From Candidatus Latescibacterota bacterium (GTDB taxonomy: Bacteria; Latescibacterota; UBA2968): a stretch of 42,555 bases of DNA. Below the pieces are notes generated by a model. That model made no database searches, was not told the origin of the DNA, and saw only the letters and a program-made list of their open reading frames with translations. Position 1 is the stretch's first letter. Each line of letters begins with the position of its first letter. The position numbers and the translations under genes were made by a program. This document shows, piece after piece, positions 40,056-42,555 of this stretch. Location of the stretch: the NCBI GenBank assembly GCA_022821275.1, contig JAJEDY010000052.1:1-42555 (forward strand), given 5' to 3'.

Positions 40056-41075
40056 TCAAAGAACCTTCAAAACATTCCTCAAAATGCGCTCTTCCCTTTG
40101 AGAAATATCATCTAACAAGGTGATGATCTTCAGAATACGATCTATATCCCACGCTCTCTTGACTTCCACTAACGCTCGTAATTTAAGCATCATCAGATGA
40201 ATCTGATGCGCCCTGTGTTCAACCTCCTTATACGCCTGATGAAACTGGTCTGACGGACGCAAATATCCGTGCTCCTCCAGATAAGCAAGCCTGTTCAACA
40301 TACAGCGCTTGTGCTCCCAAAGCGTGAACAAATGCCGCCGATCCCACAACCGGGGATGAACAAACAAATGCGTAAAATACTCTCTCAAAAGCTTATACGT
40401 CGCCATCCCAAAGACGCCTTCAACTGGCTTGCGCAATGTCCGATAGTGGATAGACGGATTCTCAGAATGGATGTATGCTCGCAACTGATCTCTGACAGCG
40501 TCAATGTCAAACTCATAGACACCGTCCTCGTTATACTCAAAAAGATCTATCCGATACGATCTGCGTTTCTCGGGATCAATCCAGCGAAACGCCGCTTCAA
40601 AATCTGAATACGCAACCCCTGAAACAGAGTAATCCCGCGCTCGATTAAATCCCAGAGTCTCCAGCGTTTCCGTATCGTCATCGTATCCGAATACCATAAT
40701 AGCATGTGGATGATGTATCTTCTCATAAAATGGCGTATGCGGCAGAAAATACTCATCGGCCATCAACTGGACATAGAAGCCCTCATCAATTTGATCGCGA
40801 ATAAACGGCACAATCTGGTGATAGACTTTAGCGATTGATCGCCTCGGAACAGTGTAGATAGACAGCCACGGCGGGAAATACTGGCCTTGAAAATAGAAGT
40901 TGAATCGGATATTATGTTTGCTCTCATGCAACAGATCAACGGCGAATAGCTGGATGTAATTGCAGAAGAACCAGGGAATATAGGCATCGTGAAGCGACAT
41001 AATCGAAAGCCGATAGCCATGGCGAGGATAGCCGTGTATGGGTGGGGATAATTGGATGGGAAGCGATTTTTTCAT
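40056..41075 (-). CDS. BtrH_N / peptidase C39-like papain-fold protein
   Basis: 339 residues. The N-terminal half resembles the BtrH N-terminal (papain/C39-like) family: P-P-I-H-G-Y-P-R-H-G-Y then H-D-A-Y-I-P-W-F-F-C-N-Y-I-Q-L-F (29-44, with Cys38) and H-A-I-M-V-F-G-Y-D-D-D (His124 onward), the recurring H...GYDDD motif of C39-like folds. The C-terminal about 120 residues are helical and charged. In butirosin synthesis BtrH moves an acyl chain from an acyl carrier protein to an amine; the adjacent ACP here supports a comparable transfer. Start: ATG 2 nt after the ACP stop; an upstream frame extension overlaps ACP. The family call is moderate and the nucleophile is uncertain. Confidence 0.6.
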   Translation of the reverse strand: MKKSLPIQLSPPIHGYPRHGYRLSIMSLHDAYIPWFFCNYIQLFAVDLLHESKHNIRFNFYFQGQYFPPWLSIYTVPRRSIAKVYHQIVPFIRDQIDEGFYVQLMADEYFLPHTPFYEKIHHPHAIMVFGYDDDTETLETLGFNRARDYSVSGVAYSDFEAAFRWIDPEKRRSYRIDLFEYNEDGVYEFDIDAVRDQLRAYIHSENPSIHYRTLRKPVEGVFGMATYKLLREYFTHLFVHPRLWDRRHLFTLWEHKRCMLNRLAYLEEHGYLRPSDQFHQAYKEVEHRAHQIHLMMLKLRALVEVKRAWDIDRILKIITLLDDISQREERILRNVLKVL

Positions 41076-41077
41076 TT

Positions 41078-41347
41078 TCAGGCAGTCAAAACGCACTCAC
41101 GCACAGACTGGATATAGTCTTCAATCGTCTGCACACTCTTAAAAATATCGCTACTCAGGTCTTCATCAGAGATTTCAATGCCAAATTCATCTTCTATGCC
41201 CACGACAAGTTCTACCATTGCCATTGAGTTGAGACCCATTTCTCCACCAAAAAGTACGTCTGAATCTCCTATCTCCTCAGGCGCAATTTCAAGGTTTAAC
41301 GCACGCACAATCGTCTGTTTTATCTGTGGCTTTAGATCATCATTCAT
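41078..41347 (-). CDS. acyl carrier protein
   Basis: 89 residues. Four-helix ACP with phosphopantetheine Ser in G-L-N-S-M-A-M-V-E-L-V-V-G-I-E-D-E-F-G-I (Ser near 41), where the usual D-S-L is replaced by N-S-M. The later E-I-S-D-E-D-L-S and T-I-E-D-Y-I are typical helix III/IV. Start overlaps the DUF1611 stop as ATGA, with AGGAGG 7 nt upstream. It is away from any fatty-acid-synthesis genes, so it is likely dedicated to this small operon and not the housekeeping ACP. Confidence 0.9.
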   Translation of the reverse strand: MNDDLKPQIKQTIVRALNLEIAPEEIGDSDVLFGGEMGLNSMAMVELVVGIEDEFGIEISDEDLSSDIFKSVQTIEDYIQSVRECVLTA

Positions 41348-42549
41348 ACATCCCCTCCTTGTTGCTCATCCGCAAAGTAGCTTATGATGAGGTCAACCAT
41401 CCTCTGTTGTCCTTCCTCTGAGACAATTTCTACGGCGGGTATCTCAAATCTATCCTCCAAATACGCCAATTTCTCCCTGATTTCTTCTTTTGACATTTGA
41501 CGTGGACTGATCAGTGTTCGCCCATAAGCTGCTCGGATATGTTTTTCTTTGTCACTCATTGCGAGGCATAACACGGGGCCTTTGGTAATTGCCTTGAGCG
41601 TGTTCATGGTGTCGCGTATATACTCACCATCATCAACGCTATTCACGACCAATATGTTGGCATCGGGTTTTGTGCCCAGCATAAAAGCGAGTGTTGTAAG
41701 CGTATGATTTCCCGGCTCCTGGACGTCATAGGGTATGCTTCCCGACTGTGCGCCCACAAGCATTAAATCCGGTTCCTTCTTGGCACAGACCTCGCGCATT
41801 TTGAAATCCAGATAAGGCGCGTGAAGCTGTATTGGAAATTGCAATGGAGAGGCATATCCTGTAGGAAATGCCACATCCATGCCAAATAACTGAGAATGGT
41901 GTTCGGTGCCGATTTGCCCAACCCTATATCCTTCTTTTATCAGCTTTGACCTCAAGGCGAGTTGAACAGTGAACTTACCTTGTTGAGCACTCGTGCCAAA
42001 AACACCGATAACTGGCACATCAACGGCTGGATACTGGTGGGGCTGAAGTGTTTTGAGCAGGTCGTTTTGATGAATGTCGGGCGAATAAATATAGAGGTTC
42101 TTTTTGCGTGCCCTTTCGATCAGATCTCTTAAATCCTTTTGGTAAACGGATAAAAAGCTGAATACATTTAAGTTGGCATCAATGGCTTTCTCAATACTCT
42201 CGCGCAGGACATTCTTTTTCGTGATTCGACTCAGTTCATCTACATAGCCCAGAATGAGTGTATCAGCCTCTTTCAATATCTCTTGAAATCGCGGCTGAAT
42301 CCGTATGTCAACAGGCGGTATGCCTATCGCTTCACCAGCGTCCTTCCCAACATAACCTTTGGCGATGGGATCAGCGATACCCACAATTTCAAAATTTAAT
42401 AACTCCCGAAAACGCATTAGGCTATGCATTTCCTTGTTATAGGGATAAATAGCTGCTTTTTTGATTTTATTTGGATCAAAGGACTGAGGCGTTGGAAAGG
42501 TCTCCGGTTGCAAGCGAATCTTACGACCTGACGGAATTTCTTGCTGCAC
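41344..42549 (-). CDS. DUF1611 family P-loop protein, 5' end at window edge
   Basis: 401 residues visible. N-terminal Rossmann-like part (A-A-I-Y-P-Y-N-K-E, I-V-G-I-A-D-P); from about residue 178 a P-loop domain with G-V-F-G-T-S-A-Q-Q-G-K-F-T (183-194). Later V-G-A-Q-S-G-S-I-P-Y-D and V-N-S-V-D-D-G-E match the DUF1611 C-terminal domain. A DUF1611 member (DgcN) was described as a D-glutamate N-acyltransferase in D-amino-acid catabolism; other members are uncharacterised. The first visible start is a GTG only 6 nt from the window end, so the true start may be outside. It couples to ACP by an ATGA overlap. Confidence 0.75.
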   Translation of the reverse strand: MQQEIPSGRKIRLQPETFPTPQSFDPNKIKKAAIYPYNKEMHSLMRFRELLNFEIVGIADPIAKGYVGKDAGEAIGIPPVDIRIQPRFQEILKEADTLILGYVDELSRITKKNVLRESIEKAIDANLNVFSFLSVYQKDLRDLIERARKKNLYIYSPDIHQNDLLKTLQPHQYPAVDVPVIGVFGTSAQQGKFTVQLALRSKLIKEGYRVGQIGTEHHSQLFGMDVAFPTGYASPLQFPIQLHAPYLDFKMREVCAKKEPDLMLVGAQSGSIPYDVQEPGNHTLTTLAFMLGTKPDANILVVNSVDDGEYIRDTMNTLKAITKGPVLCLAMSDKEKHIRAAYGRTLISPRQMSKEEIREKLAYLEDRFEIPAVEIVSEEGQQRMVDLIISYFADEQQGGDV

Positions 42550-42555
42550 TTCTCG

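Follow-up and report, generated by a model that had tools for sequence, protein, structure and literature searches.

What does a P-loop DUF1611 protein do beside a stand-alone acyl carrier protein (ACP) and a protein resembling BtrH, in an operon that runs off the end of its contig? The window (the whole stretch of Latescibacterota DNA that was analysed, 42,555 nt, here contig C52) ends within such an operon. The original prediction took the three genes for a possible undescribed system that loads an amino acid or acyl group on the ACP and releases it to an amine. We assign a probability of roughly 0.65 to a different reading as the best explanation of the whole: the window holds the promoter-distal end of a RiPP maturation and export operon, a variant related to the CLI_3235/Clo7bot systems but without a nearby radical-SAM maturase. 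That this is a RiPP operon of some kind is very likely. The features concerned are as follows, with the basis of each in parentheses.

41344..42555, minus strand: DUF1611/TIGR04066 P-loop part, the C-terminal 403 codons of a 645-aa fusion (open reading frame, TIGR04066 profile)
41078..41347, minus strand: stand-alone acyl carrier protein, attachment Ser in GLNSMA (PP-binding, AmcB and, weakly, TIGR04069)
40056..41075, minus strand: BtrH-fold protein of 339 aa, with conserved His124 and non-conserved Cys38 (Pfam, family alignment, predicted fold)
42415..42555, no strand: exact 141-bp overlap with the start of contig C16 (sequence identity between contigs)

The tight coupling of the three genes was borne out: on the minus strand, 40056-42555, they are linked by an ATGA overlap and then a 2-nt gap, and the BtrH-like gene begins with an ATG at 41075 and ends at 40056. 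The DUF1611 and ACP identities were likewise confirmed by Pfam (DUF1611, 1.4e-12; PP-binding, 6.9e-11). The operon also extends past the right edge, as had been predicted, since the DUF1611 frame is open there and its remainder lies on contig C16; the genomic context had been concealed because the contig ends at this point. The last 141 bases of the window equal the first 141 of C16, which looks like an assembly-graph overlap. When joined, the DUF1611 frame encodes a 645-residue S8 subtilase-TIGR04066 fusion, with the N-terminal subtilase on C16 (L009 142-867). In a relative (L090), the fusion gene, the ACP gene and the BtrH-like gene are contiguous on one contig, with 97% identity across the DUF1611 part. 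Upstream of the fusion, C16 carries genes for a DUF2059 protein, a Zn-ribbon protein, a CPBP protease, a candidate precursor peptide, a second Zn-ribbon-type protein, an ABC exporter and an HlyD-type adaptor. Within the joined C52-C16 region, no ligase, PPTase or fatty-acid genes were seen in the operon.

The subtilase half of the fusion matches Peptidase_S8 (2e-33), contains the motifs DSG, HGT and GSSFAAP, and resembles QhpE in a comparison made with the C55 paralogue. The P-loop half has a Walker A motif, GT...QGK.T, that is invariant in the relatives compared, and covers positions 1-360 of the 361 in TIGR04066 ('peptide maturation system protein') at 148.7 bits (2e-43), below the curated cut-off of 200. 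Among solved structures, its sequence matches the hypothetical protein 2g0t and, marginally, a Mur ligase. DgcN/DUF1611 proteins (e.g. PDB 2g0t) share the Rossmann-like and P-loop domains, whereas the window's protein is fused to a subtilase. We rejected a DgcN-type N-acetyltransferase, whose model has a cut-off of 480 bits and scored 18.7, as the identity of the DUF1611 protein.

Near the fusion lie small ORFs whose N termini carry a common motif, M..L.K[PR]...V.[AG]Y, ahead of cores that vary. Leader-type precursors of this kind were found in cassettes from Latescibacterota, Firmicutes, Treponema, Bacteroidetes and KSB1, and four leader-motif ORFs occur consecutively on one contig (L075/L119). 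An earlier, looser leader expression was barely enriched, and a tighter one with strand and shuffle controls was used instead. At mostly Latescibacterota (non-Firmicutes) loci, this tight pattern had 30 matches on the operon strand, compared with 5 on the opposite strand and 4.1 in shuffled sequence. The pattern was drawn by eye, mainly from Latescibacterota, and some Firmicutes peptides were already known, so that its modest enrichment at Firmicutes and other loci (13 operon-strand matches versus 6 opposite and 5.7 shuffled) is not fully blind; about 10 of these 13 resemble real short precursors. The operon's own candidate, on contig C16, consists of the leader MQKLVKRKMHYETIMPVEAY and a core; the leader carries a leader-like motif and the core is free of Cys, a residue present in the cores of other Latescibacterota precursors. 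No family model matched this candidate. Elsewhere, one Latescibacterota precursor matches both TIGR04333 (Clo7bot) and FlmA, and one Firmicutes precursor matches TIGR04065 across its leader, all below cut-off.

The association of the three genes proved to be recurrent in a neighbourhood survey of related loci. In the window's own genus, the recurring order is HlyD, ABC, small genes, S8/TIGR04066, ACP, in some cases a glycosyltransferase, and BtrH-like. TIGR04066 matches occur in 35 of the 64 genomes of the phylum searched, mostly in long frames, and a GTDB scan added related loci from Firmicutes, Treponema, Bacteroidetes and KSB1. Where the flanking sequence sufficed, 33/34 Firmicutes loci and 31/38 others have a fusion-length frame, 32/34 and 27/38 an ABC protein, and 26/34 and 13/38 a BtrH-like protein. 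At the genome level, TIGR04066 and the BtrH-like protein co-occur (Fisher 22/5/13/24, p = 2e-4), a test that ignores phylogeny and is supportive only. An iterated ACP model detected the carrier in at least 21 of the 34 Firmicutes loci and at least 45 of 79 overall, both lower bounds because many loci are short. Against NCBIfam, the window ACP scores 57.5 bits with AmcB and only 24.4 bits with TIGR04069 (cut-off 70). Its phosphopantetheine attachment Ser is present and is retained in relatives. The N-S-M pantetheine site, which had been called unusual, is a real motif, but many relatives carry the usual D-S-I or D-S-L.

The nearest known systems are the CLI_3235/Clo7bot RiPP systems of Firmicutes (TIGR04065/04333, 04066, 04068/04334 and 04069; e.g. 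SacP23 of Paenibacillus polymyxa), which share with the window operon a TIGR04066-like protein, an ACP-like protein, a subtilase, an ABC exporter and a short candidate precursor with a similar leader. Because this kit of S8, TIGR04066, ACP and ABC proteins matches CLI_3235/Clo7bot peptide maturation, the system is not undescribed as a whole, contrary to what had been proposed. The window operon differs in having no radical-SAM maturase, a Cys-free candidate core, an HlyD adaptor and sub-cut-off scores. The scores with TIGR04066 and TIGR04069 count against our reading, as do the unmatched precursor and the looseness of the leader expression. Clusters from Firmicutes that combine TIGR04066 and TIGR04069 with a subtilase and an ABC exporter have been described in the literature as sactipeptide or sactipeptide-like. 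The one heterologous-expression study found gave the ACP no more than a general modifying role and suggested immunity for TIGR04066 (PMC10731318).

No radical-SAM maturase (TIGR04068/04334) was seen in the joined C52-C16 region. Within a test range of 9 kb, whose reach is restricted by short contigs, a protein with the radical-SAM-type motif CxxxCxxC lies nearby at 1 of 40 mostly Latescibacterota loci versus 30 of 39 loci from Firmicutes and elsewhere. Weak TIGR04068 matches elsewhere in the genome were rejected as the maturase, being below cut-off and located in other loci. That natural operons exist without a nearby radical-SAM protein suggests that the ACP and TIGR04066 have a function of their own. 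In the literature we found, their role in CLI_3235/Clo7bot systems does not seem to be explained.

A separate comparison concerns the flm/ohk 'DD(I/V)LF' RiPP clusters, which comprise an FlmA precursor, the radical-SAM protein FlmE and the peptide arginase FlmR (compare PMC12703449). One Latescibacterota locus outside the set of 40 (L086:4588-16864) is a flm-like cluster with a radical-SAM gene. It encodes an FlmA-like precursor ending in ...GDILF, an FlmE/OhkG-type radical-SAM protein, a UPF0489 protein (peptide-arginase family), S8-TIGR04066, an ACP, an ABC protein and a canonical BtrH. The window operon, in contrast, shows no FlmA-type precursor, radical-SAM protein or arginase. Elsewhere in the window's own genome (L179:2141-7443, contig C56), small proteins repeating '...ISPQEMSM(V/A)RGGN' lie near a radical-SAM protein; they may represent another RiPP-like system of a different kind.

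We then consider the BtrH-like protein. Pfam BtrH_N scores 26.4 bits on it, below the gathering threshold of 29.7, with an alignment that covers the His half alone. The BtrH/papain-like fold was nevertheless upheld by modelling: AlphaFold2 gave a pLDDT of 47 with 8 close relatives alone, and a pLDDT of 91.3 and a pTM of 0.90 with 35 sequences that included distant relatives. Foldseek matched the resulting model to AziU2/U3 and CtaG (E 1e-9 to 1e-8), and the best solved match was the AziU2-U3 complex, at 12-13% identity and a TM of about 0.5-0.6. A search of PDB sequences with the family gave chance matches only, and a search of a viral fold library gave no significant match.

The proposed catalytic pair of Cys38 and His124 did not survive comparison with relatives, since His124 is conserved and Cys38 is not, being Ser in the C55 paralogue. 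In the family alignment, Cys occupies any given column in at most 11 of 38 members, while His is kept in 34 of 38, together with a W...N.IQ motif. The residue in place of the catalytic Cys would be Arg or Pro when aligned by eye and Tyr according to MAFFT, an ambiguous alignment. In other lineages, canonical BtrH_N-DUF4872 proteins found in this same setting do keep their residues C16, H118 and D136. When profiles were compared, the Cys-less family aligned with two canonical BtrH proteins in the His region alone, at 5% probability, and the kinship to BtrH that we infer is based on the predicted fold and on weak HMM matches to canonical members. Among members from Firmicutes and Bacteroidetes, five diverse ones had no Pfam match, and the four compared with NCBIfam had no match there. 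This is thus a BtrH-fold family without the catalytic Cys and largely without Pfam or NCBIfam models, and it lies near 26/34 Firmicutes TIGR04066 loci.

The known BtrH-fold enzymes BtrH (butirosin) and CtaG (closthioamide) are carrier-protein acyltransferases; CtaG has been assigned the transfer of a carrier-bound acyl group (PMC6772006). They resemble the window protein in fold and carrier association, whereas its family has no conserved Cys. As the catalytic Cys is absent, the protein is most likely a docking partner for the carrier or the peptide, or else it works by non-Cys chemistry; we regard scaffolding or non-Cys chemistry as its probable mode of action. AziU3/U2, reported to be the azinomycin aziridine synthase and to act via sulfate displacement, is the nearest solved fold, and the likeness here is one of fold only.

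On the RiPP reading, a ribosomal precursor (MQKLVKRKMHYETIMPVEAY and core) would be recognised through its short leader. Homology and conserved context suggest that the subtilase half cuts off the leader near the AY motif and that the product leaves through the ABC/HlyD pair. An acyl or aminoacyl group bound to phosphopantetheine may be carried by the ACP and then joined to the peptide, and we consider the chances that such a group ends up on the peptide to be about even. The P-loop TIGR04066 domain is a candidate, tentatively put forward, for ATP-driven activation or ligation, and the BtrH-fold protein might dock the carrier and the peptide or contribute non-Cys chemistry.

Several related loci offer hints of carrier-bound chemistry. 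In Paenibacillus polysaccharolyticus (L131:3404-19313), a same-strand run combines fatty-acid genes with the S8-TIGR04066/radical-SAM kit: an ACP, two ketosynthases, a FabA-like dehydratase, FabG/FabI-like reductases, a PPTase and a second ACP, together with S8-TIGR04066, a radical-SAM protein, a canonical BtrH_N protein, an AMP-binding-ACP protein and an ABC protein. From its gene content, this is a possible lipidated RiPP cluster, and its acyl-chain synthesis genes may point to lipid or acyl attachment as the function. A fatty-acid gene set within the operon was found at just this one surveyed locus; this counts against our reading, as do the ligase, PPTase and fatty-acid genes not seen in the window's own operon and the missing conserved Cys of its BtrH-like protein. 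Elsewhere, an ACP is fused to a transglutaminase core (Transglut_core) directly after S8-TIGR04066 (L109:8264-9616), and a formyltransferase-like gene lies between the ACP and BtrH-like genes (L136). By analogy with these three loci, carrier-bound acyl chemistry is plausible in the window operon; this part of the predicted acyl-transfer system is retained as plausible, while a stand-alone system is rejected as the best reading.

Such a stand-alone pathway would yield a small molecule bearing an N-acyl group, the BtrH-like protein acting as a Cys/His acyltransferase. It draws on the adjacency of a BtrH fold, an ACP and DUF1611, and on canonical Cys-His-Asp BtrH_N proteins in like contexts elsewhere. 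Yet Cys38 is not conserved, and the subtilase fusion, the exporter and the leader peptides indicate a ribosomal peptide, a likelier acceptor than the small amine first suggested; we consider this pathway very unlikely. A different role for the ACP/BtrH-fold pair, modelled on AziU3/U2, would have a carrier-tethered residue cyclised or substituted by non-Cys chemistry before being joined to the peptide. The best fold match and a family that retains His without a conserved Cys favour this role, but given the identity and TM values of that match, and with neither a sulfotransferase nor a kinase seen next to the genes, we think it unlikely.

The BtrH-like protein might alternatively serve glycosylation, aiding a glycosyltransferase that acts on the peptide or its sugar. 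A glycosyltransferase gene directly precedes the BtrH-like gene in L058, L012, L067 (GT28-like) and L187 (GT4), and a GT2-like gene adjoins it in L062; in the window operon there is no glycosyltransferase beside the BtrH-like gene, and this role has little probability here. The last alternative is that the window copy is a decaying, functionless duplicate. Compared with an intact relative, the operon's own ABC exporter gene (L009:3800-5515, contig C16) is interrupted by one in-frame TAG, at codon 218, and this operon copy may therefore be decaying; the TAG may mean a broken exporter or an assembly error in the base. BtrH copies 93-95% identical to the window's, with no S8-TIGR04066 seen, and truncated BtrH pieces in relatives also fit decay. 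Against it, none of the three window genes is disrupted, and conservation among their relatives extends to both sequence and gene order; we doubt that this copy is functionless. The RiPP maturation and export operon remains our preferred reading. More tentatively, and with rather less than even odds, the constant core of these systems could be an ACP-tethered group that is joined to or rearranged on a leader peptide by TIGR04066 and the Cys-less BtrH-fold family, with the radical-SAM protein optional and absent from most Latescibacterota operons.

The two full further BtrH-like copies in the window's own genome lie at C35:3730-4734 and C51:72814-73818; one of them adjoins an ACP, and S8-TIGR04066 was seen by neither. 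A BtrH-like fragment (C96:24076-24510) lies close to a contig end. We read these extra copies as recent duplication or gene conversion. A protein of about 210 aa is encoded directly before canonical BtrH_N genes at L069:8278-8907, L086:15240-15869 and L112:11441-12055, with no Pfam match in the two tested. Finally, BtrH-like genes often stand after or beside glycosyltransferase-type genes of differing families (L012, L058, L062, L067, L186, L187 and L190), and some of these glycosyltransferase-linked genes occur without a nearby S8-TIGR04066.
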